A stretch of 64,000 nt of DNA from Ianthella basta (lineage: Eukaryota > Porifera > Demospongiae > Verongiida > Ianthellidae), in assembly GCA_964019415.1 (NCBI GenBank), contig OZ025868.1, positions 2,385,961 through 2,449,960 on the forward strand. Reading direction: 5' to 3'. Both the position numbers and the translations under genes were made by a program. The notes below the pieces were generated by a model. That model was not told the DNA's origin. It ran no database searches and saw only the letters and a list, made by a program, of their open reading frames with translations. Below, one piece after another: positions 3,312 to 63,801 of this stretch; position 1 is the stretch's first letter, and every line of letters starts with the position of its first letter.

Positions 3312-6300
3312 TCATTTTTGATGGCTCATCTCCACTGGACAGTAGCTGGGATTGGGTTGAAGCTGGATGGTGACAGGGTCAGTGGGAGGAGGGGGGCCAG
3401 GATGGGAAGGAGGAGGGGAGGGGCTCCTCTGATGGGAGACTGAAAGAGAAAGAGAGGACTGATTGCATGTTGTGAACTGTTGCTAGAGGTAACCTGATTA
3501 TTAGTGAAAGTGGTCTGATCATTAGTTTACCTTTCTGCTTCAGCTTGTGGATCTTCCAACACAACACAATATAAACAATTATTACCACGATTCCTGCACA
3601 CAGTATTCCGAAGTAGGTGATGGTAATAATGACGATACCTAAGGAAAGTACAACACTTCATTGACATAATACAAAATGCATAATTATATTTCATATATAT
3701 ATGTATATTTATTGTTATTTAGCTTCAGACTACAGCTTATACAGAAACTGGCAGTAGAAAGATCGTGTATTCAAGCATGCTTTAACCTAAGGTTCACCTT
3801 GATCAAGTACTGTAATATAACAGCCATCACTTGAAGATGGGGCATGTATTATACATATTAGCTGAATGCCTGACCTACGGGCAGGTTGCCAGCCTATTGA
3901 AGCCAGCGAGTTGGTCCCTTAAAATTGCCAGTTTTGAACTATCTGCTCAGGTAGCAACAGAGGCTGGCTGCTATAATGACCGTAGAGTTTAATTTGAACC
4001 TTTGCCGACAACGAATAAGATCTCCAGTAAACGAAAGTCCTAGAGACCGATAATTAAAAGTGGTGTCTCGGCCCGCGGAAAAAGGAAGTGCTCTCTTCAG
4101 CTGCAGGGCAGCTAGGTGAACAGCACCCCTCTAAGCTCATGTCCCCCCACTCCCTTAACTGGCATGGCTCGTATCAAATCCACCAATGACCGGTAGCGGT
4201 AAGGCCAGTCGATAATTTTGAAAATGGCGTGTCGGCCCGCGGAGATTTGATGAAGGTCATCTCACTTATCGGTCGCAAGGCAGCTAGGCGAACGGCACCC
4301 AGCTAAGAACATGGCCTTCCAGTCCCTCAACTGGTACAGAGCATCTTGAGCCAATTTCCTGCAAGGCGCCAATTTTATGGCTGAGCAAACATACTTAAAA
4401 ATTCTAGATCTTGCGAATTGTAGTAAGATATGGCCATGGGTATATGTATGTTTATATGTACAGTATGTACATTATTACTGGTTTGTTAAGTTAAAAACGT
4501 ACATCACCATGCATGCAGTATTATGGTTATGCAATTTACATTGATATAATTTCAATCTGTATTATATTATAGCAAACGTGCACAAAAATGATGTCCACAG
4601 TCATCAATATTATATGAATAATAGAAGAAATGAGTACTTAATAAAATTGGAGAGAGAGTTCAGGTTATATTAACGTTGGCACTTACGCACCATGCAGTAC
4701 ATGTAATGTACACAGCAGTTACTCACTGGTGGTACTGAATGCAGCTGCACTTGGTGGCCCAGGTGATAACATTCCAAGGTCTGGTGTACGAGAAGGAATT
4801 AAACTGCTAACACAATCTTACACAATACCATCGATCCCACAGTGGTATTATATATTATGCAGAAAGGGGGTTGTAAATTATTGATTAACATCAGCACTAC
4901 TGGTATAAATTTGTATAACTATTATGTAATTTATATGAAAACATGTGTGCAGTATTCTAATACACACATCCCTGCAACTTTCTAGACACCCGGCTATCTC
5001 TATAGCCACTTTAAGCTGGTCAAACACACCTGATGTCCCCCATGTCATCATCTCAGGGACAATGTTCCCCATGTCATTGCTCATGTTGGTGGGGACAGTG
5101 TTGAACTTGGTCATGTTCACTGTCACTGCCTCCTCTGACAGCCGTTGGGTCAGAGGTAGGGACAGAGTCTCACGCCTATTTGAATTGACTGTGATCCTGG
5201 ACTGGAACTCATCTGCTGTTATGTTAGCAACTTGCACTCCATCAATGTCAACTGTGTACCTCTCAGTGGGGTAGCCAGGGCAGTCGGGCTCATACTGAAC
5301 GGATAGACATCAATAAATGCATGCACCATCGTTGCATGATGGCTGGATGCTTTAATGCACTGCATCACAAAGTCATGTCACACATGTACACATGTCAACA
5401 ATTAGTATAGTGTGTCTCACTTGTACAAATGTCACATTGATGAGGTCACCATCTGCTCCAATAGTGACGCTGGTAATGATGAACCGGCCAGGACCTAAAG
5501 AATCAGCCGGCACCACCATGTACTGCACATACATACATAATGGTCACTATAAAACAAGTGTATTCCTTCCACTTATAATATTATATCATTTTGCATATAT
5601 TGTTAAACCCCTATGGAACTAACAAAAATGGGTTATCCACTGTATATTTAATAAGAATCCATTATAAGAATCAAATAAATTCTTATAATTCTTTCTTAAG
5701 TGGTTGTGGCTAGGTGAGATAATTGCCTCACCTATGTACACATAAAGTCTAACTTGCTAGCCCCTCCATCTGCATGTACAATCACTCACCTAACATCACA
5801 CTGTCTTCCACCACAATGGTGTTTCCTTGTTGGTTGCCAAGCACTGCAGTGGCAGTGGAGTGGTAGGTCCTACACCTCTCCAGGTTGCTGATGGTTTATT
5901 CCACAGTGCACCCACTGGAGGTGGTACTGACTACTGAGAGAGGGGACACAGTGTGCTCCACTGAGAAGTACGAGGTGCACCTCGGGTAGAGGCTGCAGCT
6001 CTCTTGGAAGGAGTAGGTGAAGGTGGAGAGGCGCTCAGTGAAGTTGGCAGTGAAGTTCACCAATGAGAGCGCTGGTTGGTAATCTGTAAGAATAATACAG
6101 CATTAGTATTACAGTACATAACTGGCAGTGAGTAAAGGGTGGGGTCACTGAGGTTGAGAGGGAGCTGGGCACAGCTCACAACTACATACATAGATGCAAG
6201 CTGGTAGCTATGCATACATGTACAAATAATTATGCCTTTATTTATGCACTGCATGGTACAAGGTCATAGATACTTGTATCATATTCTTTGGCCACAAGGT

Positions 6301-7143
6301 GAATTTTATGGATCAACATAACTGTGCAATACAACATTATACAATTCCTGGCAGGTAATGCAAGACAAATGAGGTATGTAACGTGCTGTGACTAACCATT
6401 AGGAACAAAAGTGTACTTGACTGCATTGCTCTTGATGGGAGTGCCCAGTATGCTGTACACACACTGGAAAACATATCCATCCAGAGCTGTTACATCACCC
6501 ACTCCAGTAACTGTCACTCTGTGTTCTGTTCTGTTCTGGAAAGAGTACATTGTCAACCCAGGGAATGCAGTGGCAAGGAGTTCACCACCCTCCACTGTCC
6601 CATTGTGTATCCAGGTTGGGTCAGAAAGAATGTCATCATGTCTGCAGATGAGGGTGAGTTGGTCTGAACAGTCCCCTTGGAGCTCCAAGGAGACACTTAA
6701 GGCAGCTGTGGGATGGAACGAATGCTTAGTGTGCCTGCCATGTAGCTATACAGCTATATACAGTACACCATACACTATACGTAGCACATATGCATAGCTA
6801 CTACATTTATACAAATTCTCTTATCTGAGTCAGTGCTACGTATTCTGCATACATAACAACCACAGCTTACTGTGTAGTACTGAAGCAGCTGTAAAGAAGT
6901 ATAATGTTGTCAGTGGAGTTAGAAGCGCGCAGAGCACACAGATCATACGTACAATGTACCAGCTCATTTACCTCCAGTAGAGCACTCCAGCACTAGTACA
7001 ACAGTGATAGCCAACAGGGAGACTGTGTGACCACTTGCACCTACATGGGGGGGGGGGAGGGGAGGGGAGAGGTGAGGTACACAACTGAACAAGTGAAGGT
7101 GAAGTAGACTAAAATCAATCCACTAACTAAATGGAACGGCCAT
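3312..7143 (-). CDS. R1: Ig/FN3 single-pass receptor, short-tail class
   Basis: Exons: 7128-7143, 6972-7040, 6397-6705, 5790-6083, 5421-5494, 5021-5294, 4727-4744, 3531-3638, 3312-3439; total 1290 nt, 429 aa. Order: signal peptide about 1-28, Ig about 29-131 (LICRH, WIHNGT, FQCVY), FN3-like 132-229, split FN3-like 230-345, six-residue stalk, TM about 355-380 (ILCAGIVVIIVYIVLCW), tail of about 42 residues. The tail keeps the proximal tyrosine (NPSYCPVEM) but stops at SHQK, so the ITIM-like SKYVNL end is missing. Oddity: the donor after the 274-nt exon, gtgagc in paralogs, reads accagc here; without it the transcript would need another donor with a different phase. The frame is otherwise open throughout, so the gene may be recently damaged. 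R6 and R14 share its TM and tail type. Confidence 0.7.
3861..4430. mobile_element. Insertion in R1 intron 7 with two imperfect 160-bp repeats
   Basis: The homologous R6 intron runs straight through (near 23810-23830), whereas R1 has about 570 extra bases. Inside are two diverged copies of a unit starting with a cgataatt motif (near 4048 and 4209), then tcggcccgcgg, a gcagctagg(t/c)gaac motif and a ccct(t/c)aactgg motif. It encodes nothing recognisable, and I could not see a target duplication. Confidence 0.5.
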
Positions 7144-7556: not shown

Positions 7557-8269
7557 TTACAAATTGACATATTTAGATTCATTCTCCAGCCGGCTGCTCA
7601 TTAGCTGTTGATGGCTCATTTCCACTGAACAGTAACTTGGGTTGGGTTGGAGCTGAATGCTGGTGGGTTCACCAGAGGGGATGGGGTCAGCAGCAGTGGA
7701 TGGGCCAGTAGAGGGGGTGGGGTCACTAGTGGGGGAGGGGTCACCAAATGGGGTCGGTTCACTGAGGTTAAGTGGGAGCTGGACACTGCAGGTACTACAG
7801 TGTGAGCCTGAAATTGAAAGCAGATTAGCAAATTTTAAATAATCTCCAGTAGTGCATGTATGTACATGTGTTCACTCCTACCATCACAAGCACTAAAGTG
7901 TGAGACTGAAATAGAGAACAGCAATTAAAACTTTGAGTACATGTCCTTCGGTTCATTGTCATGAACCATGCATGCAGGAGCAGTACAAGTGTCCATCAAC
8001 TAATAGTGCATACATGTGTACAATGTGATCAATGGGTTACCTTTCTGTTTCAAAGTGTGTACCTTCCAAAACAACACAGCAGTGATACCTCCAAATATGG
8101 TCATACTGACAATGTACAGTGCAGTGAGAGAGTACACCACACCTGTAAAGACCTCCTGTGAGACTGACAGAGGTGACAGGTGACAGAGATATAGATTTAT
8201 ACAATTAATAAACACATTAGTAGATGCGCACACACGCATAAGCACATGCACACCTGCACACGTACACAT

Positions 8270-8334
<65 letters not shown>

Positions 8335-8370
8335 TACGCAGATGCACATGCACTCAAACACACACACACT

Positions 8371-8414
<44 letters not shown>

Positions 8415-10186
8415 TTGGATTTGATGATGCTGAAGTTGCTGTTGGATTGAATACATCTGTACACGGCATAATAATACCAGTCTGAATTTGATAACTTGTG
8501 CTTCACCACCCTCGTACCCAGGCTTTTGCTAAAACTAGTGAAAGCTTGTGTACAAAGCTAGTGCTCCACCTGACAGTTTAACATGGAGGAGGTGTAATTC
8601 CACAACACTATGCTTACACTTTGACTGATTATGACAATATTTCCTCAATGTACTATTATTATAATTTATAGAATACAATAGTATCAGACAGTATGCATAG
8701 CATTGTGTGATCTCAATGCATGTAGCTAGAGATGGTTACATTCTGTTCAATTCATACCTTCTGTTGTGAAGTTCACTGTAGCCACCTCACTGTACACAAC
8801 TGGGTCACTTGAAGTGAACCCAAACAACTCCACTTGGTAGTCTGTGCCATTCATCAGGTTGGTGATGATGTATGCTGTTGCACCTGGTACAGTCACAGCA
8901 CTCTGCCCCTCCCCCCTCTGGGCAACCCCACCCACCACAGGGTACCAGGTGATGTTGTAGGAGAAGGTAAAATTAGTGAAGCAGGGTCCTTTGTCAGTGT
9001 GGTGCCATGATGACGTTGCCATGGTACCATTCACCACAACACATGTGAATGTTGGTGGTGCAGCAATGTCTGAACAAATTGACCAATTCAAGGAGATGAA
9101 AAGGCAATGTATTCAGTACATACAGTGCAGCCCACTCAGGTATTACAGCACTGATACAGACTGTAAGTTAGTGTCCACATTAGAGTACATGTACAGGTAA
9201 CAGTGCTGCAAATTGATTACATCATAGCTGATATAGCAAGCACCTAGCTACTCTGGCACAGATTGGACACATACAATAGGTGTTGGCCACAACATTGTAT
9301 AGTATGGTTCAATAATTGTCCATGGATAAGGACTCCAGTAGCACTGCACAATATTATGCATGGCATACAGTAAACATTCAGTTTGTAGCAGCACTGCATC
9401 TATGACATTTGGGGCAACGTGTTGTGTGTGACTGACCATTCGGAACAAAAGTGTACTTGACTGTATTGCTCTTGATGAGGGTGCCCTGTATGCTGTACGC
9501 ACAATGGAAAACATATCCATCCAGAGCTGTTACATCATCCACTTCAGTGACTGTCACTCTGTGTTCTGTGCTGTTTTGGAAAGAGTACATCGTTAACCCA
9601 GGGAAGGCTGAGGCAAGGAGTTCACCACCCTCTGCTGTCCCATTGTGTATCCAGGCTGGGTCAATAGGAACAGCATCATGTCTACAGATGAGGGTGAGTT
9701 GATCTGAACAGTCCCTTTGGAGCTCCAGGGAGACACTGAAGGCAGCTGTGAGATGAAATGAATGCGTATATAGTGCATGCACGAAATAGCTGCCATGTAA
9801 CTATACAGCTATATACAGTACACCATACACTATACATAGCACATACGCATAGCTACTACATTTATACAAATTCCCTTATCTGAGTCAGTGCTACGTATTC
9901 TGCATACATAACAACCACAGCTTACTGTGTAGTAGTGGAGCTGTAAAGAAGTATAATGTTGTCAGTGGAGTTAGAAGCACACAGACCATACGTACAATGT
10001 ACCAGCTCATTTACCTCCAGTAGAGCACTCCAGCACTACTACAACAGTGATAGCCAACAGGGAGACTGTGTGACCACTTGCACCTACAGTACATGGGGTG
10101 AGAGAGAGGTGAGGTACACAACTGAACAATTGAAGGAGAAGTAGACTGAGGATGAAATAAATCCACTAACTAAATGAGACGGCCAT
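7557..10186 (-). CDS. R2: Ig + single FN3 receptor with long ITIM-like tail
   Basis: Exons: 10171-10186, 10015-10083, 9437-9745, 8758-9069, 8412-8456, 8041-8163, 7557-7807; 1125 nt, 374 aa, fully open. Signal peptide 1-28; Ig 29-131 (CSDQLTLICRH, WIHNGTAEGG, VFHCAYS); one classical FN3 at 132-235 (NLMNGTDYQVELFGFTSSDP) instead of the two FN3-like domains of most paralogs; Ser/Thr stalk; TM exon (VFTGVVYSLTALYIVSMTIF); Pro/Thr tail 292-374. The tail has two tyrosines: SYCSVEM and the C-terminal SKYVNL (ITIM pattern S-x-Y-x-x-L, also a Grb2-type YVN). The stalk donor lies at the edge of a GT microsatellite (GTGCGTGTGT). R7 is its decayed sister. One of the best-preserved genes here. Confidence 0.85.
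8271..8413. repeat. Interrupted (CA)n microsatellite
   Basis: Two long CA tracts separated by a short mixed segment. On the gene strand it is (GT)n and directly abuts the stalk-exon donor of R2. Confidence 0.95.
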
Positions 10187-10599: not shown

Positions 10600-13500
10600 T
10601 TACAAATTGACATATTTAGATCCATTCTCCAGCTGGCTGCTCATTAGCTGTTGATGGCTCATTTCCACTGAACAGTAACTTGGGTTGGGTTGGAGCTGAA
10701 TGTTGGTGGGTTCACCAGAGGGGGTGGGGTCAGCAGCAGTGGATGGGACAGTAGAGGGGGTGGGGTCACTAGTGGGGGTGGGGTCACCAAATGGGGTCGG
10801 TTCACTGAGGTTAAGTGAGAGCTGGACACTGCAGGTACTACAGTGTGAGCCTGAAAATAAAAACAGATTAGCAAATTTTAAATTAATCTTAGCTAGTGCA
10901 TGTATGTACATGTGCTCACTCCTACCATCACAAGCACTAATTGTGAGACTGAAATAGAGAACAGCAATTAAAACTTTGAGTATAGATGTCCTTCAGTTCA
11001 TTGTCATGAACAGGAGCAGTACAAGTGTCCATTAACTACTAGTGCATACATGTGTACAATGTGATCAATGGGTTACCTTTCTGTTTCAAAGTGTGTATCT
11101 TCCAACACAACACAGCAGTGATACCTCCAAATATGGTCATACTGACAATGTACAGTGCAGTGAGAGAGTACACCACACCTGTGAAGACCTCTTGTGAGAC
11201 TGAAAGAGGGAACAATAGGGTCGACGTTGGAGTTGTACAGTATACACATATATGAAATTGTATACATGCACACACATACCCCCCCCCCCCCCCACACACA
11301 CACACGTGCATGTGCATGCATAACGCTTACCTGTGGCTGAAGGCACTGTAGTGAATTCAGCTGCGGTAAATTATTATATTAATAGAACATGTGAGAAGAC
11401 AGGCAGTGCAGAGAGAAGTAGAAAGATGAGAGTACATAAATATTTCAGAAGGAAATGACTTCAATAAATACATATCTTGCATAAATTGGTGCCACAAATG
11501 TACATCCACCGCATAAATTCCCATGAAGTTGCCAACCAACCAATGCTCTCCTATATACTATATGACACATACTTGCACCACTCAAATATGTGCTCTACTT
11601 CCTTCTCACATCTGTGATATACATATACTAGTCTATATATTCTATAATAATTATAGCTCACCGAACACACCTGATGTCCCCCATGTCACCATCTTAGTGA
11701 CAATGTTCCCCATGTCATCACTCATGTTGGTGGAGACAGTGTTGAACTTGGTCATGTTCACTGTCACTGCCTCCTCTGACAGCTGTTGGGTCAGAGGTAG
11801 GGACAGAGTCACAAACCCATTTGAATAATCTGTGATCTTGGACTGGAACTCATCTGCTGTCATGTTAGCAACTTGCACTCCATCAATGTCAACTGTGTAC
11901 TTCTCAGTGGGGTAGCCAGGGCAGTCGGGCTCATACTGAAGGAATGGCATGGCATGTAATTGTAGTAGGCAATGCTTAGTGATCCTCTCAAGTCACATGA
12001 CTCACTTGTACAAATGTCACATTGATGAGGTCACGATCTGCTCCAATAGTGACACTGGTGATGGTGAATTGACCAGGACCTGAAGAAATGACCACCATTA
12101 ATATACTATATAGGAATATCATTAATGGTCACAGTGTAACAAGTACTGAAATTCCTATTATAGTGCCATGTTGTTGTGTTATTTGTGCATGTATCACTAT
12201 GAGTCATTCCAGCATAGGTATAAGTGTCCCATTAGATCCATTTGGCATTCTTAACTTGTTGTGGCTAGGTGAGACAACAGCTCACTAAGTACACAGTCCA
12301 ACTCACTAGCCCCTCCATCTCCATGTTGGTGCATATACAATCACTCACTTAACATCACACTGTCTCCCACTATCACAGAGTTTCCTCGTCGGTTGCCAAA
12401 CACTGCAGTGGCAGTGGAGTGGTAGGTCCTACACCTCTCCAGGTTGCTGATGGTGTACTCCACAGTGCACCCACTGGAGGTGGTGCTGACTACTGAGAGA
12501 GGGGACACAGTGTGCTCCACTGAGAAGTACGAGGTGCACCTCGGGTAGAGGCTGCAGCTCTCTTGGAAGGAGTAGGTGACGGTGGAGAGGCGCTCGGAGA
12601 AGTTGGCTGTGAAACTCACCACGGAGAGAGCTGGCTGGTAGTCTGCAATGGAAAGAGAATATTTGGAGTAAGTATATTATCATGGAACTATTAAGATTAT
12701 GTAGTTTTCTCTGTACTGCCCTAGCTATAGTCTCGTTCCCAGACCCACCTCCGCCGTTCCGCCAATTTTATTTAGATAGGGGGGTGGAGGAAGGGTCTGG
12801 TAACATTGCCATACCGTTTCTGTACCTGCGCCTGAATCCTGGCGCGACCAATCAGATCACAGAACGTTATTGTAGTTCGCAACTTCATATGCGTTTATGC
12901 ACGTGATTAACTACGTTTATTCATCGGTGACTCCGCCTCCTCGGTACAGAAACGGTATGGCAATGTTACCAGACCCTTCCTCCGCCCCCCCCCCCCCATC
13001 TAAATAAAATTGGCGGAACGGTGGAGGTGGGTCTGGGAACGAGACTACCCTAGCTATTGTGCTTGTGCATTAGATGGGAGTAAACTCATACCCTCCATAA
13101 TGCTCAAATGTGTGGGCTAGAGCTGGGAATCTACCACATGTTTATATATACTTATATATGTGTGTTGATATGTATTTACACCATGTAATTGATGTGCACA
13201 CGTGCACTCATTTATATATACAGTACAGCAGGTGGAACATTCTCTACAGCATACTGACCAGGAGGGATGAAGGAGAACTGGACTGCACTGCTCTTTTCGA
13301 TAGTCCCTAGTACATCATACACACACTGGATGGAGTGTCCATCTAGAGCTTCCACACTGTCTATTCCACTGATAGTTGCTCTGTGTTCAGTTAGGCTTTC
13401 AAAAGTGTACTCAGTCCCTGGGAAGGCAGTGCCAAGAGTATCACCAGCTATTCTGCTCACTGTCCCATTGTGTATCCAGTTTGGAGGAGTGATAACAGCA

Positions 13501-14255
13501 CTGTGTCTACAGATGAGGGTGAGCTGGTCTGAACAGTTTCCTCCTTGGAGCTCCAGGGAGACAGTGAAGTTAGTTTCCGCTGTAAAATTTTAATGACGTA
13601 GAAGTATATGTAAGGATCATGAAAAATGATGAGCAGTATTGCAGCTTTAATAAATGATGGGGGAGCAGAACGTTTCGACCCGGGGGTCTTTGTCAACTGC
13701 TTACAGTGCACACTGTAAGCAGTTGACAAAGACCCCCAGGTCAGTGGGGACAGGACTGTGTCTTCAGATGAGGGTGAGCTCATCTGAACAATCCCCTTGG
13801 AGCTCCAGGGAGACAGTGAATGCAGCTATGAGATGGAGACAACAAGATATGCACGTACTGTACATATATATATATGCACAGTGCACAGAAGATCTGCCAC
13901 CTTATATATAGCCACGTACACTGTACACAATACATTAATGCATAGCCACATTACCATCATACAATTGTATCGTTGCTGAGTCCACTGTGCTCTGATATAA
14001 TGTGCACTAGTGGAGCTGTATGCTGTCAACATGACTAGAAACACACAAAGCACACATAGTGTACCAACTCAGTTATAGCTACCTTCTCCTCCAGTAGAGC
14101 ACTCCAGTACTAGTACAACAGTGACAGCCAACAGGGAGAATGTGTGACCATTTGCACCTACATGGGGTGGGAGAGAGGAGAGATACACAACTGAACAACT
14201 GAAGGAGAAGTAGACTAAGGACAGAATGAATCTACTAACCAAATGGAACGGCCAT
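10600..14255 (-). CDS. R3: Ig/FN3/FN3 receptor with long ITIM-like tail
   Basis: Exons: 14240-14255, 14083-14157, 13259-13579, 12349-12642, 12006-12079, 11662-11935, 11331-11360, 11077-11199, 10600-10850; 1458 nt, 485 aa, open. Signal peptide 1-30 (SLLAVTVVLVLECS); Ig 31-137 of the third Ig subtype (AETNF start, TPPNWIHNGTV, IQCVYDVLG), shared only with R10; FN3-like 138-235 (SNLERCRTYHSTATAVFGNR); split FN3-like 236-351; stalk 352-361; TM 362-402; tail 403-485 with SYCSVEM and the terminal ENGSKYVNL. An additional broken Ig exon lies at 13740-13825 and must be skipped because it has an early stop. Intron 3 carries a MITE and intron 2 a perfect hairpin, neither touching exons. Confidence 0.83.
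11280..11304. repeat. Poly-C plus (CA)n tract
   Basis: About 13 C residues followed by a short CA run, in the R3 intron between stalk and TM exons where paralogs hold long CA tracts. Confidence 0.9.
12728..13047. mobile_element. Mutator-like MITE with about 100-bp terminal inverted repeats
   Basis: The 320-bp element starts tagtctcgttcccagaccc and ends with the complement gggtctgggaacgagacta. The arms extend inward for about 100 bp, through ggtacagaaacggtatggca in the right arm. It is flanked by 9-bp direct copies ccctagcta (12719-12727 and 13048-13056). The paralogous R10 intron near 43721-43737 has the uninterrupted site ccctagctattgtg, so this is a genuine insertion. A 9-bp duplication and long inverted ends fit Mutator-type transposons; there is no coding capacity. 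Confidence 0.9.
13682..13737. repeat. Perfect hairpin, 27-bp arms with 2-nt spacer
   Basis: Arms 13682-13708 and 13711-13737 are exact reverse complements (gggggtctttgtcaactgc outward part). Next to it is gtcgaaacgtt on the minus strand (near 13667-13677), a string resembling the end of hammerhead-type repeats; no full ribozyme core is visible. It abuts the broken Ig exon fragment of R3. Confidence 0.9.
13740..13825 (-). pseudogene. Truncated duplicate Ig exon
   Basis: Starting at a plausible acceptor (13825), it reads AAFTVSLELQGDCSDELTLI, then TGA where paralogs have the Ig cysteine codon TGT. Homology ends at the hairpin after about 85 bp. It is an extra 5' piece of an Ig exon left in R3 intron 2. 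Confidence 0.85.
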
Positions 14256-14639: not shown

Positions 14640-18389
<3,750 letters not shown>

Positions 18390-18741: not shown

Positions 18742-19518
18742 TTACAAATTGACATATTTAGATTCATTCTCCAGCCGACTGCTCATTAGCTGTTGATGGC
18801 TCATTTCAACTGAAGAGTAACTTGGGTTGGGTTGGAGCTGGATGTTGATGGGGTCACCAGAGGAGGTGGGGTCATCAGAGGAGGTGGGGTCACCAGAGGG
18901 GGTGGGGTCACCAGACAGGGTGGGGTCAGGGGGGCCTGGTGTGGGTTGGACATTCCTACCCTCACAAGTGCTGAAGTGTGACGCTGAGATGAAATAGAGA
19001 ACAACAAAACTTTGAGTCATGTATTCACTGCCAAGAACTATGAACAGGGGTTGGATCTCTATGATTAAGTGGGAGTTGGATACAATACCATCAAAACTGC
19101 TGAAGTGTTAGACTGAAATGAAAATGAGAGCAATGAAAATTTGAGGGCGTGCAGGCCGGCATTCAGTTTATTGTCAAGAACCAACTGGAGCAGTACAAGT
19201 GTCCATTAACTACTAGTGCATACATGTGTACAATGTGATCAATGGGTTACCTTTCTGTTTCAAAGTGTGTATCTTCCAACACAACACAACAGTGATACCT
19301 CCAAATATGGTCATACTGACAATGTACAGTGCTGTGAGAGAGTACACCACACCTGTGAAGACTTCTTGTGAGACTGACAGAGGTATAAGAAATGGGTCTG
19401 GAGTAATACACTACACATGCACATATGTAATCAAAGTCACACACACACACACACACAGGCACACACAGACACACCCACACACAGACAGACAGACACACAC
19501 ACACACATACACACGCAT

Positions 19519-19616
<98 letters not shown>

Positions 19617-27227: not shown

Positions 27228-27869
27228 TTACAAATTTGCATATTTAGATTCATTCTCCAGCCGGCTGCTCATTAGCTGTTGATGGCTCATTTCAACAGAA
27301 CAGTAACTTGGGTTGGGTTGGAGCTGGATGCTGGTGGGGTCACCAGAGGAGGTGGGGTCAGCAGAGGGGGTGGGGTCAGCAGAGGGGGTGGGGTCACCAG
27401 AGGGGGTGGGAACACCAGAGGGGGTGGGGACACCAGAGGGGGTGGGGACACCAGAGGAGGTGGGGACTCCAGAGGGGGTGGGGTCACTGGGATCAAGTGG
27501 GAGTTGAACACTCCTACCATATGCATCACAACCACTGAAGTGTACAACTGAGATGAGAAGGAGATCATGTAATGTAACTTTGAGTGCATGTATTCAAACC
27601 CCTGGAGCAGTACAAGAGTACATTAACTACAATAGTGCATACATGCGTACAATGTGATCAATGGGTTACCTTTCTGTTTCAAAGTGTGTATCTTCCTTCC
27701 AACACAACACAGCAGTGATACCTCCAAATATGGTCATACTGACAATGTACAGTGCAGTAAGAGAGTACAGCACACTTGTGAAGACCTCCTGTGAGACTGA
27801 CAGAGGTAAAAGGTGACAGAGATATGGATTCATACAATTAATAAACGAATACGCATACACACGAATATG

Positions 27870-45817: not shown

Positions 45818-48800
45818 TTACAAAATGACATATTTAGATTCATTCTCCAGCCGGCTGCTCATTAGCTGTTGATGGCTCATTTCCACTGAACAGTAACTTG
45901 GGTTGGGCTGGAGCTGAATGCTGGTGGGGTCACAAGAAGGGGTGGGGTCACTAGAGGGGGTGGGGTCACCAGAGGGGGTGGGGTTATCAGAAGGGGTGGG
46001 GTCATCAGAGGGGGTGGGGTTACCTGAGTGTGAAACTGCAATGAAAAAGAGAGCACTGAATAAAGTTGAGGGCCGGCATGCAGGCCAGCATTCAATTCAT
46101 TTGTCAGCAACCATGAACAGTACAAATGTATAACAACTACTAATGCATACATGTGCACTGTACAATGTGATCAATGGGTTACCTTTCTGTTTCAAAGTGT
46201 GTATCTTCCAACACAACACAGCAGTGATACCTCCAAATGTGGTCATACTGACAATGTACAGTGCAGTGAGAGAGTACAGCACACCTGTGAAGACCTCCTG
46301 TGAGACTGACAGAGGTATAAAAAAAGGTCTGGAGTAATACACTACACGTGCACATAATTATGTGATCAAAGTCATACACACACACACACACATACACACA
46401 CACCCACACCCACACCCACACACACCCACACACACACACACACACACATGTGCATACATGTACAACGCTTACCTGTGGCTGAAGGGATTGTTGAAACATG
46501 TGATTTGAATTCAGCTGTGGTAATATATAAATTATATTAAAAAGAACATGTGAGAAGATAAAGGTGATCGAAGGTACATTAATATTCCTGAAGGTAATGA
46601 CTTCTATAAGTATGAATACAAATCTTATTTAATTTTGTGCTACGAAAATACATCATCTGCCACATTCAGTACCCATCAGGTTATATCTTATTAGTAAATA
46701 CTCTCCTGCATGTGAAACATACATGCAATCGATCACTCAAATACGTACTCTACTTCCTTCTGACATCTGTGATGAATGCAATATTATGCCAATTCATGTA
46801 TTCTATCAATCTCTTGTCAATTATAGCTCACCGAACACAGCTGATGTCCTCCATGTCACCATCTCAGTGACAACATTCCCCATGTCATCACTCATGTTGG
46901 TGGGGACAGTATTGAACTTGGTCATGTTCACTGTCACTGCTTCCTCTGACAGCCGTTGGGTCAGAGGTAGGGACAGAGTCACAAACCCATTTGAATGGTC
47001 TGTGATCTTGGAGTGGAACTCATCTGCTGTCATGTTAGCAACTTGCACTCCATCAATGTCTACTGTGTACCTCTCAGTGGGGTAGCCAGGGCAGTCGGGC
47101 TCATACTGAAGGAATGGACACATGCTGCATGTAATTGTAATAGGCAATGCTTAGTATTCATCCCAAGTCACATGACTCACTTGTACAAATGTCACATTGA
47201 TGAAGTCATGATCTGCTCCAATAGTGACACTGGGGATGATAAACTGGCCAGGACCTGAAGAAAGTGCCATGCACCATTTACTGTGCATACACCATTAATG
47301 GTCACCGTAAACAAGCACTGTTATTCCTATGTACCACACATTGTATCATTTGTGCATGCATAACACTAGAAATGGGACTCACAGGAATGAGTCCTTCCCT
47401 GCAAGAGTACTAATTTTACCATTAGATCCATTAGACACCATTAAGTTATTGCATGCAGCCTATGTTATGCGCACCATATGGCCCTTCCACTTCACACAAT
47501 GGTGCATGTACTGTACAATCACTCACTTAGCATGACAGTGTTTCTGACAACAATGGTGTTTCCCCTCTGGTTGCCAAGGAGTGCAGTGGCAGTGGAGTGG
47601 TAGGTCCTACACCTCTCCAGGTTGCTGATGGTGTACTCCACAGTGCACCCACTGGAGGTGGTGCTGACTACTGAGAGAGGGGACACAGTGTGTTCCACTG
47701 AGAAGTACGGGGTGCACATCGGGTAGAGGCTGCAGCTCTCTTGAAAGGAGTAGGTGAAGGAGGAGAGGCGTTTGGAGAAGTTGGCTGTGAAGTTCACCAT
47801 GGACAGAGTCGGTTGGTAGTCTGCGAGAATAATATGTACATCGATCTATAGTATTACAGTACATATTTGGCAGTGAGTAAAGCATTCCCAGCTACATAGA
47901 TGTAAACTGGTAGCTACGCATATATGCATGATTATGCATAATACCAATATCATAATCTACTGTATATGCACTGTGAGGTACAATGTCATAGATACCAGTA
48001 TCTTTCTCTTGGCCACAATTAAGGTGAAAATTCATGGATCAACATAAATGTGCAACATAACATTATACAATTCCCTGCAGGTGATGCAAGACAAAAGAGG
48101 TACATAACGTTGTGACTGACCATTAGGAACAAAATTGTACTTGACTGCATTGCTCCTGACGAGGGTGCCCAATATGCTGTACACACACTGGAAAACATAT
48201 CCATCCAGAGCTGTTACATCATCCACTTGAGTGATGGTCACTCTGTGCTCTGTGCTGTTCTGGAAAGAGTACATTGTCAACCCAGGGAAGGCTGAGGCAA
48301 AGAGTTCACCATACCCCACTGTCCCATTGTGTATCCAGGTTGGGTCAGTGGGAACAGCATCATGTCTACAGATGAGGGTGAGCTGGTCTGAACAGTCCGT
48401 TTGGAGCTCCAGGGAGATATTAAAGTCAGCTGTGTGATGGAATGAATGCATATATAGTCCATGCACAAAAGAGCTGCCGTGTACAGTACGTAGCTATACA
48501 GTACACCATACACTATACGTAGCATATACGTATAGCTACTACATTTATACAAATTCTCTTATCTGAGTCAGTGGCACTACGTATTCTGCATACATAACAA
48601 CCACAGCTCACTGTGTAGTAGTGGAGCTGTAAAGAAGTATAGTGTTGTCAGTGGAGTTAGAAGCACGCAGAGCACACAGAGCATACATAGCTACAATGTA
48701 CCAGCTCAATTACCTCCAGTTGAGCTCTCCAGTACTAGTACAACAGTGATAGCCAACAGGGAGACTGTGTGACCACTTGTACCTACATGGGGGAGGGGGG

Positions 48801-48881
48801 AAGGTGAGGTACACTACTGAACAAGTAAAGGTGAAGCAGACTGAGGATGGAATATATTCACTAACTAAATGGAACGGCCAT
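45818..48881 (-). CDS. R11: Ig/FN3/FN3 receptor with long ITIM-like tail (YVIL variant)
   Basis: Exons: 48866-48881, 48714-48782, 48121-48429, 47527-47820, 47181-47254, 46832-47105, 46473-46514, 46183-46305, 45818-46035; 1419 nt, 472 aa, open. Signal peptide 1-28; Ig 29-131 of subtype I (TWIHNGTVGYGELFASAF); two FN3-like domains to 345; stalk; class A TM (SLTALYIVSMTTFGGITAVL); tail with five TPS repeats, SYCSVEM and the C-terminus SKYVIL. The Asn at Y+2 in sister tails is Ile here, so the ITIM pattern persists but the Grb2-type YxN is lost. Upstream, 48882-50749 is filled by inserted DNA including a retrozyme-like element. Confidence 0.84.
46375..46449. repeat. (CA)n microsatellite with CACACC interruptions
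   Basis: CA tract in the R11 stalk-TM intron. Confidence 0.95.
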
Positions 48882-50749: not shown

Positions 50750-51012
50750 TTATAAATTGACGTATTTAGATTCATTCTCCAGCCGGCTGCTCATTAGCTG
50801 TTGATGGCTCATTTCAACTGAACAGTAACTTGGGTTGGGTTGGAGCTGAATGCTGTTGGGGACACCAGAAGGGGTGGGGTCATTAGAGGGGGTGGGGTTA
50901 CCTGAGGGGTTCGGATCACAATGTACAGTGCAGTGAGAGAGTACACCACACCTGTGAAGACCTCCTGCGAGACTGACAGAGGGAACAATGGGAAGATACA
51001 CATGCACACACA

Positions 51013-51055
<43 letters not shown>

Positions 51056-51097
51056 ACACACACACTCACACGCACACACACACACACACACACACAT

Positions 51098-51135
<38 letters not shown>

Positions 51136-51322
51136 GCACACACACACATGCACACACACACACGTGCACACACACACACACGCACACACTTTCTTTCCTT
51201 CTATTTCACTACCAAATTCACACACACGCATGCACACACACACACACGTATACGTACACAACACATGCACACAGACATACAAGCACATACACAGCTAGAC
51301 ACATAGAGTTGTGCATTCATGT

Positions 51323-51383
<61 letters not shown>

Positions 51384-54080
51384 ACACACACATACACACA
51401 CACATGTGCGCATGCATGCACAACGCTTACCTGTGGCAGAAGGGACTGTTGGAACATGTGAAGTGAATACAGCTGTGGTATAACAACATCATGTTAACGT
51501 GTGAGAAGACAGGCAGAGCATAGAGTAGTAGAAGGGAAGACACACAAATGTTTCTGAAGATTATCAGTCCGATAATGACTTCTATGAATACAAATCTTGC
51601 ATAATTTGGTACACAACTCTAAATCCACCCCATTAATTCCCATCAATGGAGAAGGAAAGAATTCCAAGCATAATCGCAGCCAGGCCCAATGGAAGGAGCT
51701 ATGTCAAAAGACATTAAAGCATTGTGTCAAAACACGACACAATCATTCTGATCAAGTTGCAAAACATTTTAAATTTCCCGTATATGAAACATACATGTAT
51801 CACTCAAATAAGTACTCTGCTTCTTTATAACATGTGTATGTATACTAGTCTATACATTCTATAATATTTAAAGCTCACTGAACACAGCTGATGTCTTCCA
51901 TGTCACCATTTTAGTGACAATGCTTCCCATGTCATCACTCATGTTGGTGGGAACAGTGTTGAACTTGGTCATGTTCACTGTCACTGCCTCCTCTGACAGC
52001 CGTTGGGTCAGAGGTAGGGACAGAGTCACAAACCCATTTCAATGATCTGTGGTCTTGGAGTGGAACTCATCTGCTGTCATGTTAGCAACTTGCACTCCAT
52101 CAATGTCCACTGTGTACCTCTCAGTGGGGTAGCCAGGGCAGTCGGGCTCAAACTAAAGGGATGGACATGCGCTGCATGTAATTGTAGTAGGCAATGCTTA
52201 GTATTCCTCCCAAGTCACATGACTCACTTGCACAAATGTCACATTGATGAGGTCATGATCTGCTTCAATAGTGACACTGGTGATGATGAATTGACCAGGA
52301 CCTGAAGAAACATTCAGCACTACATGCAATGTATGGTCAGTATAAAACAATCACCATCCTATAATGTTAACGTTGTTGGACACAGGAGCTAGCTAGTGAG
52401 TCAGCCTCTGCACACATGCACCCTATTACATCCATTTACCACTATTAAGTTGTTGTAGGTAGATGAGATAATTGTCTCACATATAATATGTACACAGTCC
52501 AACTCGCTAGCCCCTCCATCTCCAAGTTGGTGCATATACAATCACTCACTTAACATCACACTGTCTCCCACTATCACAGTGTTTCCTCGTCGGTTGCCAA
52601 GGAGTGCAGTGGCAGTGGAGTGGTAGGTCCTACACCTCTCCAGGTTGCTGATGGTGTACTCCACAGTGCACCCACTGGAGGTGGTGCTGACTACTGAGAG
52701 AGGGGACACAGTGTGCTCCACTGAGAAGTACGAGGTGCACCTCGGGTAGAGGCTGCAGCTCTCTTGGAAGGAGTAGGTAAAGGTGGAGAGACGCTCAGAG
52801 AAGTTGGCTGTGAAGTTCACCAAAGAGAGTGTTGGTTGGTAGTCTAGAGTAAGAGATAGGGATGACAGAATTATTATTGAAATGCAAATTTAATGCTGTG
52901 TGCTATATGCACTACACTATGCTGATATCGATGTAGTTTGAGGGATGGGCATAATCTCTTACAACATTCACATGATCCACCACATAACAAAAGGCTATAT
53001 AGAGCCAGATGCTGACGGTTGATGACACACTGAAGCTGTATTATACATACATGTTATTAATTACAAGACATCACAACGCTCCTGAGTGTAGAGCAATGTA
53101 TTCAATTGTACAGTGATGCAGAGGGGACAAAGCATCATGCTGTATTGAGGTACCATACTTGGACAGCATCTAACATAATTGCACTGCACTGCTTTTGATG
53201 TTAATAACTGCAAATGCCGGAAGTTCTACAGTAAATATCAGTATAAAGCATACTACAATGCCGCATACACATTCAGGAATGCAAGCAATTATGAAATGAA
53301 ACCTGCACGCATATCCTTAGCTTGTGCAGGGGGTGATGATGAACCCATATGTAACACACAACTTGCACTGTGAGGGTCAGAATATTGCAACAAGCTCAAG
53401 CAAACAATTTCTGCCAATGTATATTAGCATCCTGTGTCTATGCATGTATAGACTGACCTGCAGGGATGAAGGAATACTGGACTGCATTGCTTTTGGTGAT
53501 GGTGCCCAGCACATCATACACACACTGGATGGTGAATCCATCTAAACCCACTCCACTGATGGTTGCTGTGTGTTCTGATAAAGCTTGAACAGTGTACACT
53601 GCTCCTGGGAATGCAGTGCCAAGGACATCACCACTCTCCACTGTCCCATTGTGTATCCACAGTGGGGCAGCACCACTGTCACCGTGTCTGCAGATGAGAG
53701 TGAGCTGATTGGAACAGTCCCCTTGGAGCTCCAAAGAGATACTGAAGGCAGTTATACAGCCTACACAGGATGAAAAACTAGTGGATGTTGGTAGACCACT
53801 GCCAATGCTCCCAGAAGACAACCAACCTATTGTGTCACTGTCACATTGCTTCACAAATAGTAGCGAGCTACAGTCTCTAAAGGCATTACGTAGCTAGTTC
53901 GCCACCTTATCCTCCAGTAGAGCACTCCAGTACTAGTATACAACAGTGACAGCCAACAGGGAGACTGTGTGACCACATGCACCTACATGGGGTGGGAGAG
54001 AGGTGAGGTACACAACTGAACAACTGAAGGAAAAGTAAACTGAGGATGGAGTGAATCCACTAACTAAATGAAACGGCCAT
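50750..54080 (-). pseudogene. R12: decayed receptor with TM and tail exons fused by deletion
   Basis: Exons: 54065-54080, 53906-53982, 53458-53760, 52550-52843, 52228-52301, 51879-52152, 51431-51472, and a fused block 50750-50972. Lesions: 2 extra bases in the signal-peptide exon (tagtatacaa near 53936-53942; 77 instead of 75 nt), a TGA at 52039-52041 where sisters have TCA in the 274-nt exon, and a deletion joining TM-exon sequence (VVYSLTALYIV) directly to the tail exon near 50916/50917, removing half the TM segment and the intron. The tail frame with SYCSVEM and SKYVNL survives but is not the frame delivered. The Ig exon (subtype II) appears to use an acceptor 15 bases upstream of the usual one. 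Confidence 0.88.
51001..51405. repeat. Compound (CA)n region
   Basis: Two CA-rich tracts (51001-51190 and 51327-51405) around a short unique segment containing tttctttccttctatttcac, in the R12 stalk-TM region. Confidence 0.95.
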
Positions 54081-54405: not shown

Positions 54406-59009
<4,604 letters not shown>

Positions 59010-59890: not shown

Positions 59891-60030
59891 AGGAGTTGGC
59901 AGAGTCAGATACACTGCAGCCTTTCCAGCAGTATGCTGAGTTACAATTCGGTGATCGTGAGATGCATCCAATTGCTGCTCCTCCAAATGAGAATTTGAAT
60001 GTAAAGTACACAGAAATCAGTAAGACATAA
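59891..60030 (+). pseudogene. Orphan plus-strand receptor tail exon with tyrosine motifs
   Basis: After a CAG acceptor (59888-59890) the phase-1 frame reads EELAESDTLQPFQQYAELQF and ends NENLNVKYTEISKT then TAA. VKYTEI fits the ITIM pattern and YAEL is a YxxL motif. The end resembles the R0 tail (NENFDVQYQNISQA), so it belongs to the plus-strand subclass. No plus-strand TM, stalk or ectodomain exons are found near it. It is either a relic or an exon of an unseen gene. Confidence 0.6.
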
Positions 60031-60292: not shown

Positions 60293-63200
60293 TCATTTTT
60301 GATGGAGCATCTCCATTGAACAGTAGCTGGGATTGGGTTGAAGTTGGATGGTGTTAGAGTCAGTGGGAGGAGGGGGGCCAGGATGGGAAGGAGGAGGGAA
60401 GGGGGTGGGGCTCCTCTGAAGAGAGACTGAAATAGAAAGTAAAGACTGACTGCATGTTGTGAACTGTTGAAAGGATGCATGCTGTTATGTGAAGGTGGTC
60501 TGATTAGCAGTTTACCTTTCTGTTTCAGCTTGTGGACTTTCCAACACAACACAGTAGTAACAATTCCAAATATGGTAATGGTCACCACCCACAGTAGTAC
60601 GAGGAAGGTGGTAGTAACAATACAGGTACCTGAGGAAATATAAACATCCATAAACTAGTTAGCATGCATTGTGCACAACATGTATGTATAATATGCACCT
60701 GCAATAATAATTTTAAAGGCTATTGTCACCTAAAGACTTATACTGTACAGGTATCACCATGCACGTGCATACGTATGCTATACTGCCTAATTGTCCATCC
60801 TATATATATATATATATATTGATTGCTGTTACAGTATCAGATGTGATGCAAAGTGATGATGCTCATTCATCAATTATTGCTTATTACACAAAAGTGAGCA
60901 CGTATTTGGAGGGACAGAGTTGGCACAAGTCATACAAATACCCGGTACATGTATACTCCTTGAGTGCTCAACAGTGTGACACCATCTTTACCTGCATCAC
61001 TGAAGGCTGCACTTGTCTGCTCAGATGGTGATGTTCGTATATCTGATGTAAGTGGAGGAATTTAGTAGAATAAATTAAATGAATCAGTTTTTGGGGAAGC
61101 AGTGACAATTGCTCCAGTAGCGTAGCTAATCTTAAATCATCCCACAGTTATACAAAGAATGGCTTAAAAGTAGCAATCAACAGTGCTAGCAATACATGTA
61201 GTGCAACTTTGCAGAATAAAATGCATCCCTGTTTTCTAGACATTAATGCACACTCTTGTCAATTTCGGCTCACCAAACACAGCTGATGTCCCCCATGTCA
61301 CCCTCTTAGTAACAATGTTCCCCATGTCATCACTAATGTTGGTGGGGACAGTGTTGAACTTGGTCATGTTCACTGTCACTGCCTCCTCTGACAGCCGTTG
61401 GGTCAGAGGTAGGGACAGAGTCACTGAGCCATTAGTGCGGCAGGTGGTTAGAGACTGGAAATGAATTACTGTCATGTTAGCAACTTGCACTCCATCAATG
61501 TCCACTGTGTACCTCTCAGTGGGGTAGCCAGGGCAGTCGGGCTCATACTGAAGGAATGAACAAATGACGCATGCATTGTTGTATGTAGGTTTAGAATAAC
61601 CATAATTATATAGCAGATGCAGTCTGAGATGCTGTAATGCATAATTATACTGTCTGTATATTTAACGGTACTATTAGCTATAATTACATATCACACACAG
61701 TATATGTTATACTGGTCATGATTACTTATGTATAACATTATAGCTTGTCAACAGCTATATGTAATAACATGACTCACTTGTACAAATGTCACATTGATGA
61801 CGTCATGATCTGCTCCAATAGTGACACTGGTGATGGTGAATCGGCCAGGACCAGAAGAAACATCCAGCACTACATACCATGTATGGTCTGTATAAAACAG
61901 TTACCCTCCTAGCTCATGTTGTTGTACAATATTCACATCTATAACACTACAAATGGTACTGAAACAGAAGTGAGTCAGCTCATGCACATGCATCCCATTA
62001 AATCCATTTAACACTATTATGTTGTTGTGGGTAGATGAGATAATTGCCTCACCTATACCACGTACACAGTCCAACTTGCTAGCCCCTCTATCTCCATATG
62101 TTGGTGCATGTACAATCACTCACTTAACATCACACTGTCTCCCACTATCACAGTGTTTCCTCGTCGGTTGCCAAACACTACAGTGGCAGTGGAGTGGTAG
62201 GTCCTACACCTCTCCAGGTTGCTGATGGTGTACTCCACAGTGCACCCACTGAAGGTGGTGCTGACTACTGAGAGAGGGGACGCAGTGTGCTCCACTGAGA
62301 AGTACGAGGTGCACCTCGGGTAGAGGCTGCAGCTCTCTTGGAAGGAGTAGGTGAAGGTGGAGAAGCGCTCAGAGAAATTGGTTGTGCAATTCACCAAGGA
62401 GAGCTCTGGCTGGTAGTCTATACAAGCATAATTAATACAGTTACATCAGTTACAGAATAATTAATGCAGCATGATCATAGTGCTGTAATGATTTGTGATT
62501 CACCCCTAAACATAGCATTGAGTGTACGTATAATAGGTAGATGCTCCTAGGGGGTGTATGTATGTATGCCAATTTCATTTGTGTAGCTATGTGTTTGTGA
62601 ATATACTATGCAATGAATGCATTGTACACTTTGCATCATCTACAATAGATGTTTGTGGTCAAGCTATATAGTTTATGGATTCATTGATGTCAGTCTGGCT
62701 CATAAGCATACCATAGCACAATAAATGAACTGCTGGCAGTAGTCAAAGCATAATTGATTGTCGTAACATGTTGTGACTGACCATTAGGAACAAATGAGTA
62801 CTGGATTGCATTGCTCTTGATGGGGGTGCCCTGTATGCTGTACACACACTGGATGTATCCATTCACTGCTGGTAAATTTCCTACTCCAATAACTGTCACT
62901 CTGTGTTCTGTGCTGCTCTGTAAAGAGTACATTGTCAACCCAGGGAAGGCAGTGACAAGGGGTTCACCGGCCCCCGCTGTCCCATTGTGTATCCAGTTTG
63001 GGTCAGTAAGAACAGCATCATGTCTACAGATGAGGGTGAGCTGGTCTGAACAGTCCCCTTGGAGCTCCAGGGAGACATCAAAGACAGCTGTGAGATGCAC
63101 AGAGCATGGTACAGTACATGAATATAGTGCACAACAGAGCTACCGCTGCATGTACACATAGCTACAGTACAATTCTAACTACAGTAGCTTAACTTAATCA

Positions 63201-63801
63201 CCACTACTTTAACACCATTAATGTGTGCACATGTCCGTATGTCTGTCTGTGGTTGATAATTTCTCCACCATCTTGCTGGGAAACAAACATGCAGCACATT
63301 ATCAAGAATTATGCGAAACCACATAGTAAGTGTCGTAAGAGTGTCCAGGTGGTCCATATTCTCTATGCTAGCCAGTTTGAGGCCAATGGCCACTTCCACT
63401 CGTCTTTTGATTGCAATATTTGTAGCTCTTCGTAACCAAGGACACTTGAGCCTTCACCCCATACTTCTTGAATCTACCCCAATATACATATCATTACTAC
63501 CTATTACTACAGTAGCTGTCATTAGAACGCCTGCTTTTGGTGGGCATATACAGTATATACTGTTAATATTACTTAGAACTAGAAGTGTGCACACAACGTG
63601 CACAGCTGCACTACACCAACTCAGTTACCCTCTCCTCCAGTAGAGCCTTCCAGTACTAGTACAACAGTGACAGCCAACAGGGAGACTGTGTGACCACTTG
63701 CACCTACATGGGGTAAGAGGGAGGTGAGGTACACAACTGAACAACTGAAGGAGAAGTAGACTGAGGATGGAATGAATCCACTAACCAAATGAAACGGCCA
63801 C
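60293..63801 (-). pseudogene. R14: short-tail class receptor with lost start codon and lost acceptor
   Basis: Exons: 63786-63801, 63629-63703, 62782-63087, 62124-62417, 61778-61851, 61274-61547, 60992-61006, 60516-60629, 60293-60426; 1302 nt in phase. The start codon is GTG (plus-strand cac at 63799-63801) where all sisters have ATG, with no in-frame ATG seen close upstream. The acceptor before the 74-nt exon is TG instead of AG (61852-61853). Other exons are open: Ig subtype I, two FN3-like domains, a 5-residue stalk, TM (TTTFLVLLWVVTITIFGIV), tail ending SYCSMEMLHQK, so no distal tyrosine. Possibly a recent pseudogene. The first FN3 exon reads EYT-SNLERCRTY as in paralogs. Confidence 0.7.
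63175..63560 (-). other. Conserved ORF-like block in R14 SP-Ig intron
   Basis: Fourth copy of the block seen in R4, R8 and R13; 74 open codons starting MEVAIGLKLASIENMDHLDT, nearly identical to R8. Unknown function. Confidence 0.4.

Follow-up and report, generated by a model that had tools for sequence, protein, structure and literature searches.

Tandem Ig receptor genes with NPxY and ITIM tails on opposite strands in the sponge Ianthella basta: a candidate paired-receptor complex

We examined a 64,000-nucleotide stretch of the Ianthella basta genome (the window), in which 14 receptor copies lie on the minus strand between positions 3312 and 63801 (Table 1). The copies were delimited by their second signal-peptide exons (SP2) and splice borders. 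There is one SP2 exon per copy, with tops at 63704, 58912, 53983, 48783, 45406, 37164, 33622, 29605, 26716, 22857, 18292, 14158, 10084 and 7041, and GT-AG borders are mostly conserved, bearing out the array proposed by an earlier, sequence-only reading of this DNA. Chance repeats were rejected as an explanation, since splice sites and frames are conserved. Introns of the reference copy, R13, are in phase 1, except for the FN2/FN3 intron, which is in phase 0. The single exon plan ascribed to all copies proved wrong: in R2 and R7 one FN3 exon replaces the three exons of other copies, and the transmembrane (TM) and tail exons fall into three classes (a, b and c). The array runs on past the left and right edges of the window.

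Six copies are open, as had been claimed. The exons of R2, R5, R8, R11 and R13 join into open frames of 367-477 amino acids (no stalk exon was used for R2). R3 is open only if a 23-base mini exon is skipped, inclusion of which brings in three stops. The other eight of the 14 are broken or altered. The frameshift reported in R4 was located in the Ig exon, R10 is open as far as the changed tail assigned to it, and the five copies described as decayed (R6, R7, R9, R12 and R14) carry at least two lesions each. R1, which had been taken as in frame, is not: besides the lost donor, an overlooked TAA interrupts its first FN exon. Mitochondrial markers agree with Porifera, and very probably with a demosponge. 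The gene atp9, whose presence in animal mtDNA is a mark of sponges, is mitochondrially encoded (C96:4910-5098; ATP-synt_C; ORF of 78 amino acids), and COX1 (520 amino acids) is open under code 4.

Table 1. Receptor copies and other features of the window
Feature	Position	Strand	Description
R1	3312..7143	-	class c; TAA 5898-5896 in FN1 exon; FN3 donor AC; tail end NPSYCPVEMSHQK
R2	7557..10186	-	open; Ig, single FN3 (Pfam fn3), TM class b, NPSY/SKYVNL tail
R3	10600..14255	-	Ig class b, TM class b; open with 23-base mini exon skipped
R4	14640..18389	-	Ig exon frameshifted
R5	18742..22954	-	open; Ig class b, TM class b
R6	23297..26805	-	decayed, class c; SP2 frameshift; Ig exon disrupted, donor lost
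R7	27228..29705	-	decayed, R2-type; Ig frameshift, FN3 acceptor GG, TM frameshift
R8	30108..33711	-	open; Ig class a, TM class a
R9	34078..37261	-	decayed; FN1 truncated, FN3 frameshift
R10	37596..45503	-	frame-changed tail after open exons; retrotransposon in intron
Non-LTR retrotransposon in R10 intron	38713..42060	+	Exo_endo_phos and RVT_1 ORFs (Pfam)
R11	45818..48881	-	open; Ig class a, TM class b
R12	50750..54080	-	decayed; SP2 frameshift, FN3 stop, fused TM-tail region
R13	54406..59009	-	open reference copy; nine exons, 463 aa
R14	60293..63801	-	decayed, class c; GTG replaces ATG; FN2 acceptor TG
Extra class a tail piece by R14	59527-59358	-	beside decayed class c copy
Plus-strand ITIM gene, FN3-equivalent exon	58..331	+	Ig, FN1 exons left of window: C1:2384220, C1:2385362
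Plus-strand ITIM gene, stalk exon	513..569	+	
Plus-strand ITIM gene, transmembrane exon	978..1111	+	
Plus-strand ITIM gene, tail exon	1926..2144	+	strict ITIM VQYQNI at 2115-2132
Relic ITIM tail end (QQYAEL ... VKYTEIS)	59914..60030	+	tail-to-tail with R14

On the opposite strand lies a second receptor family, and the right-hand exons of one of its genes fill window positions 58-2144. This family was absent from the sequence-only reading. Ig and FN1 exons are common to both families: each plus-strand Ig exon shares 75-90% identity with its top match on the minus strand, and trees of Ig and FN1 do not separate the members by strand. Strict ITIMs are present in all five plus-strand tails whose letters were read, and by their motifs these genes are putative ITIM-bearing inhibitory receptors. 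Together the two families display related ectodomains with contrasting tails, as paired receptors do. Candidate SH2 and PTP matches lie at C16:693.8-713.4 kb, where match coordinates place putative SHP-like genes.

The window is a small part of the repertoire. Contigs C1, C9 and C7 hold 63 tail matches and 86 Ig-exon matches, some of the latter fragmentary, so that the proposed tandem birth and death of Ig receptors with tyrosine tails extends far beyond the window. The two tail types occupy opposite strands in 62 of 63 tail matches on C1, where seven ITIM tails of a far cluster are known as matches and motif reading covers five other tails. In this far cluster the nearest opposite NPSY match is 3.2-10.4 kb off for six of the seven ITIM tails, with none for one, and tight tail-to-tail pairing was not seen with the queries used. 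Likewise, NPSY tails on C9 (nine) and C7 (two) have no adjacent ITIM match.

A fold model identifies the N-terminal exon of the minus-strand genes as a V-type Ig domain of the Ig superfamily, with two core cysteines and a tryptophan in an Ig fold. Pfam backs the label "FN3-like" for the exon of R2, which by itself reaches 27.7 bits against fn3 (cut-off 25; 24.6 bits, slightly below it, in the whole protein) and has a homologue in R7. For the common FN1 exon the label finds no backing in Pfam, nor in a fold model that was too weak to use (pLDDT 52) and matched no known fold at E<=0.001; FN1 and FN2/3 of R13 and R11 have no Pfam match. In the suggested Pfam check, whole joined proteins of the common type matched neither Ig nor FN3. 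Because Pfam is silent on these proteins, the domain names rest on the fold model for Ig and on one exon type for FN3. PDB sequence searches returned no relevant match, and eight 3-kb loci with Pfam Ig_3 (six on C21, one on C3, one on C6, none from C8) show no clear kinship to the array family, their best link being a TM-like match at E 0.004. A receptor tyrosine kinase of the GEORTK type was rejected: Pfam detected no kinase domain in R13, R2, R11 or those exons of the plus-strand gene that lie in the window, and the tails are short, the stop codon lying at most about 95 amino acids from the TM exon in joined copies.

The tails had been described as ITIM-like. Across 324 kb, NPxY is the motif that stays constant in minus-strand tails: NPSY is present in 29 of 33 matches, the remaining four being proline-rich stretches or out-of-frame pieces. 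What stands of the description is that 17 of the 29 NPSY tails, those of broken genes included, hold the strict ITIM consensus [SIVL]xYxx[ILV], as SKYxx[LV] in 16; the clear ITIMs are those of the plus-strand family. A distal YxxL is frequent in classes a and b, giving them the NPxY plus YxxL of CED-1, Draper and MEGF10 tails, and class c tails (R1, R6 and R14) have NPxY only, without a distal tyrosine. Since the proximal tyrosine (YCSV) does not fit an ITIM, 17 residues, too many for an ITAM, separate it from the next tyrosine, and no TM helix holds a charged residue (spacing and helices read by eye in window genes and flanks), an activating arm is not supported: these genes include no activating member with an ITAM or a charged TM residue.

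Sponges feed by phagocytosing bacteria, and the array may encode engulfment or microbe-uptake receptors with a tail of the CED-1/Draper/MEGF10 kind, the ITIM family acting as a brake in the manner of Draper-II and Corkscrew, with bacteria or debris, not self, as ligands. We regard this as a serious candidate, at somewhat below an even chance. The prevalence of NPSY and the many distal YxxL motifs are consistent with it, as are passages of PMC8092387 according to which Draper and Megf10 have NPxY plus an ITAM, CED-1 has NPxY plus YxxL, and the Draper-II ITIM binds Corkscrew. However, Pfam finds no EMI or EGF domain in R13, R2, R11 or the in-window exons of the plus-strand gene, and known engulfment receptors are single genes, unlike the large Ig repertoire here. 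NPxY is an integrin-type motif as well. It could connect ordinary, tandemly expanded adhesion molecules to the cytoskeleton, with no immune role, and passages of PMC11999971 assign sponge IgSF chiefly to adhesion. We consider this unlikely, given the many copies, the extensive decay and a strict-ITIM second family that draws on the same ectodomain pool.

At the tail end dN/dS is 0.15, with dN>dS in none of 172 pairs, on a stretch picked for its conservation; the ectodomain is less conserved (dN/dS 0.33-0.50). The Ig domain averages a dN/dS below 1, with dN exceeding dS in 8 of 325 pairs. Variability did not differ significantly between Ig loops and strands (p=0.20), and thus CDR-like hypervariability is not claimed. 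The eight broken or altered window copies and the retrotransposon inside R10 would suit a mostly dead or selfish expansion devoid of function, an account made very improbable by the six open copies and the tail-end conservation.

Many V-type Ig genes, with ITIMs among them, would also be expected of an allorecognition complex that sets fusion or rejection among sponges, as Hydractinia alr or Botryllus fuhc do. An ITIM tail near-identical (99%) to one here was found on another contig (1,684,830 bases), on which 13 Ig ORFs, among the matches listed, share 70-88% identity with their closest counterparts in a set of 26 local Ig ORFs. Passages of PMC12065747 report ITIM/ITAM-type motifs in Hydractinia and Botryllus candidate genes. 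Weighing on the other side, the protein database was clustered at 90%, hiding closer relatives, and the words "immunoglobulin" and "receptor" are absent from the main text of one sponge graft transcriptome (PMC5450542). We hold an allorecognition role as a tentative possibility, less likely than not.

The array is, in our judgment, probably a complex of paired recognition receptors, in which NPxY tails give one output and ITIM tails the other. Each gene encodes a predicted type I surface protein, in which a signal peptide and a single V-type Ig domain are followed by a membrane-proximal region, a single TM helix and a short tail. The two families present a common Ig end on differing tails encoded on opposite strands. 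When phosphorylated, the minus-strand NPxY, with the distal YxxL of classes a and b, may dock phosphotyrosine-binding adaptors and SH2 proteins, leading to uptake, adhesion or activation. The strict ITIMs of the opposite-strand family may recruit an SHP-type phosphatase that damps the same response, and the ligands recognised could be variable self or microbial. Tandem duplication, recombination between Ig and tail ends, and decay would vary the outer parts and keep the tail end constant. Counting against this reading are the shortness of the motifs, the lack of ITAM spacing and charged TM residues, the eight broken or altered copies, the average Ig dN/dS, the Ig loops that do not significantly exceed strands in variability, and the far C1 cluster and the C9 and C7 tails, where close pairing was not seen. 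More speculatively, and with well under an even chance, dozens of genes form a sponge complex in which one V-type Ig pool serves NPxY and ITIM tails on opposite strands, often in convergent pairs, and which governs self/non-self or symbiont/food decisions.

Passages of PMC12065747 trace ITIM/ITAM-type signalling from cnidarians up to mammals and say that the proteins proposed for allorecognition in sponges, cnidarians and ascidians lack conservation. Sponge self/non-self discrimination is sharp, and the receptors behind it are not established. An array of V-type Ig and strict ITIMs beside an NPxY family offers a concrete locus for asking whether recognition already relied on opposing tyrosine signals at the base of animals. 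If the paired complex is real, ITIM-based recognition either was present in the last common ancestor of all living animals or arose separately in sponges, and sponge allorecognition gains a receptor locus to test.

Among known systems, the vertebrate paired receptors KIR, LILR and SIRP and teleost NITR are like the array in that kindred ectodomains bear contrasting tails and that genes arise and decay in tandem and exchange exons; their activating members, in contrast, rely on ITAM adaptors and charged TM residues, and the genes read here show neither. Sponge aggregation factors and Geodia SAM/GEORTK are likewise cell-recognition candidates, some with Ig domains, whereas the scanned array proteins have no kinase or Calx-beta Pfam match. 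No sponge array of this kind was described among the titles and abstract openings listed, in a search mostly outside subscription journals. Hydractinia Alr1 and Alr2 carry several Ig-like domains. Passages of PMC11999971 and PMC12065747 describe Alr, in likeness to the array, as an Ig family of 41 genes, placed in the allorecognition complex of a non-bilaterian and reported to have ITIM/ITAM-type motifs; compared by description only, Alr1/Alr2 differ in their allorecognition role and V-set and I-set domains from a poriferan array with one Ig and tail families on opposite strands. Draper/Draper-II, CED-1 and MEGF10 resemble the array in tails of NPxY plus YxxL or ITAM, and in the presence of an ITIM-bearing form, there Draper-II, by which an SHP-type phosphatase is recruited, but have EMI/EGF-type ectodomains and splice forms of one gene in place of Ig ectodomains and separate tandem genes (passages of PMC8092387). 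The fester co-receptors (FcoR) of the Botryllus schlosseri fuhc locus, again compared by description only, combine hemITAMs with sushi and C2-type Ig domains, where the sponge array has one Ig, another membrane-proximal region and NPxY; both are large type I families with V-type Ig, ITIM or other tyrosine tails and many members per locus (passages of PMC12065747).

The fourteen minus-strand Ig receptor copies that the sequence-only reading had claimed for the window (R1 to R14, from low to high coordinate) were recovered in place by exon-by-exon tblastn and splice-border alignment. In the reference copy R13, a 16-base start exon and a second signal-peptide exon precede a single Ig exon (300 bases) and the exons named FN1 (294), FN2 (74), FN3 (274), stalk (42), transmembrane (TM, 117) and tail (200); every intron is in phase 1 apart from that dividing FN2 from FN3. 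Joining the exons of R2 (stalk left out), R5, R8, R11 and R13 yielded open proteins of 367-477 aa, and R3 joins to an open frame provided that a 23-base mini exon is skipped. R1 had been read as in frame; besides having lost a donor, it is interrupted by a TAA at 5898-5896. In R2 and R7 a single, different FN3 exon replaces FN1-FN3. With Ig and TM classes assigned by hand before counting, all six combinations of two Ig and three TM classes were present among the 14 genes. Directly upstream of the TM exon, 10 of the 14 copies carry (CA)n microsatellites (e.g. 15235-15402, 38111-38294, 54956-55130), which are possible hotspots of recombination between the Ig end and the tail end.

We extended the search by 130 kb on each side, giving a 324 kb region (22.5 kb of the flanks is N), across most of which family exons are spread. 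NPSY was found in 29 of 33 minus-strand tail matches, a set that includes tails from broken genes and an additional tail piece. Class a and class b tails finish with ...ESKYVNL or a variant of it, and a distal tyrosine satisfies the ITIM consensus in 17 of the 29 NPSY tails; the R13 motif, PKYVNL, lies outside it. Class c tails (R1, R6, R14) end at NPSYC[PS][VM]EM.HQK, without a distal tyrosine motif. Within class b tail exons, the proline-rich part is built of tandem 18-base units (six residues each), whose number varies among copies and may thereby alter tail length.

Features of the two receptor families (window positions unless C1, the contig holding the window, is named)
Feature	Position	Strand	Remark
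R13, reference copy	59009-54406	minus	nine exons
Non-LTR retrotransposon	38713-42060		ORFs for endonuclease and reverse transcriptase; lies in an intron of R10
Class b 18-base repeat	7664-7746, 10705-10805, 14745-14863, 18849-18928, 27333-27487, 34183-34282, 45923-46028, 50857-50909		
Edge-spanning plus-strand gene, last four exons	58-331, 513-569, 978-1111, 1926-2144	plus	
Second plus-strand gene, left of window	about C1:2360.9-2367.1 kb	plus	stretches read by eye
Relic ITIM tail	59914-60030	plus	one of five plus-strand tails

The plus strand holds a second family, in which the same Ig and FN1 exons are followed by a TM and a tail of another kind. Plus-strand Ig exons share 75-90% identity with their best match on the minus strand. 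One such gene spans the left window edge; its last four exons, once joined, are open, have GT-AG borders and end in ...NENFDVQYQNISQA. In a second gene, of which stretches were read by eye, signal, Ig, FN1, FN2, FN3, TM and tail exons are recognisable, bounded by GT-AG. A strict ITIM is present in all five plus-strand tails of the 324 kb region, as VQYQNI and VKYTEI in two tails each and as VQYSEV in one; NPxY is absent from the portion read of each. Plus-strand Ig exons at C1:2507089 and C1:2570356 (window +121129 and +184396) lead into a divergent exon of FN type that resembles the one in P0001 and P0002, proteins from outside contigs; they mark a putative further plus-strand subfamily, recognised by its Ig and FN-type exons.

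The assembly searched comprises 96 contigs (209 Mb). COX1 of its mitochondrial contig is open under code 4, and ATP synthase subunit 9 is encoded there (C96:4910-5098, 78 aa); among animals, mitochondrial atp9 is known as a sponge trait. We take the COX1 protein and gene order to be those of a demosponge. Genome-wide, the joined R13 protein gave at least 121 matches (92 of 645 candidates scored), 116 of them in two stretches of C1 (0.30-0.81 and 2.26-2.69 Mb), four on C9 and one on C7. Two Ig queries from outside contigs gave 86 matches each, part of them split or fragmentary. The NPSY tail query gave 63 matches. The ITIM tail query gave 11, all on C1: four near the window and seven, known by their match positions, at 0.32-0.72 Mb.

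In both C1 clusters the two tail types lie on opposite strands, with one exception among 63 matches: at 2.26-2.71 Mb NPSY is minus in 34/34 and ITIM plus in 4/4, and at 0.32-0.82 Mb NPSY is plus in 17/18 and ITIM minus in 7/7 (p-values for this partition assume independent copies, which these are not). After each of the five ITIM tails of the 324 kb region, the next minus-strand NPSY tail is class c, 234-1509 bp away, a label held by 8 of the 29 NPSY tails. No such closeness was seen in the far cluster, where a 35-residue query, which detects class c tails poorly, placed the next opposite-strand NPSY match 3.2-10.4 kb away for six of seven ITIM tails and found none for one. The convergent ITIM/NPSY pair may thus be an ancient unit that was duplicated locally.

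Quick trees of the Ig and FN1 exons each required 5 strand-label changes (against means of 6.3-6.4 after shuffling, with a count this low in 56-82 of 500 shuffles), and the membrane-proximal exon tree 2, reached by 0 of 500 shuffles; weak forks numbered 8/23, 10/21 and 13/20 in the three trees. The labels denote strand, and two of seven plus-strand Ig exons (window +121 and +184 kb) come from the further gene type, tail unseen. Since strand labels mix on the Ig and FN1 trees and not on the membrane-proximal tree, the Ig end seems to have been exchanged between families and the membrane end not.

Nei-Gojobori means, with pairs at saturated distance removed, gave dN/dS of 0.15 for the tail end (dN 0.025, dS 0.171; 20 sequences, 35 residues picked for their conservation), 0.33 for FN1 (24 sequences), 0.50 for Ig (26 sequences; mean below 1, dN>dS in 8/325 pairs) and 0.50 for FN3 (23 sequences; dN>dS in 44/251 pairs), values that gene conversion may distort. 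Conserved tail ends beneath more variable ectodomains fit receptors with fixed signalling and changing ligand contact.

Among four related ORFs of outside contigs, P0006 and P0007 retain the ITIM, P0008 ends ahead of it and P0009 has a different C-terminus. P0006 matches the ITIM tail query from the window at 99% identity, about 20 intron-coded residues included, and lies on a contig of 1,684,830 bases, distinct from the window's own (1,446,205 bases, identified through 100% matches). In a comparison of 58 of 120 listed proteins (the best 120 of 212 found), the 13 Ig ORFs listed for the P0006 contig were 70-88% identical to the nearest of 26 local Ig exons. P0031, one of these 13, and P0012, from another contig, reach no more than 84% and 83% identity, respectively, with any sequence of this genome. 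As a lead only, the P0006 contig may represent a different haplotype, or come from a near relative whose gene set differs; the protein database is clustered at 90%, which may hide closer copies.

Candidate signalling partners lie on C16, where five SH2 matches (697956-713366) and three PTP matches (693793-694062, 694657-694794, 706914-707039), all minus-strand, alternate in two blocks, as expected from their coordinates for two tandem candidate SH2-SH2-PTP genes. At least dozens of protein tyrosine phosphatase matches form arrays at C6:4.2-7.6 Mb and C12:4.4-6.1 Mb, and phosphatase-like genes seem also to be expanded in this genome. Long Pfam Ig_3 arrays occur at C8:1.76-3.49 Mb and C21:2.05-2.67 Mb, and account for many of the 150 matches scored; the six loci compared, all on C21, were not clearly related to the receptors of the window.

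We propose that minus-strand receptors would turn ligand binding into uptake, adhesion or activation by way of NPxY/YxxL, and that plus-strand receptors would answer the same ligand class with ITIM-dependent inhibition. The ligands may be self, other sponges or microbes. According to PMC8092387, the Draper tail combines NPxY with an ITAM, and the Draper-II form has an ITIM to which the phosphatase Corkscrew binds; Draper offers the nearest working model for these tails. For the array itself, the closest counterparts are Botryllus FcoR and Hydractinia Alr (PMC12065747, PMC11999971).
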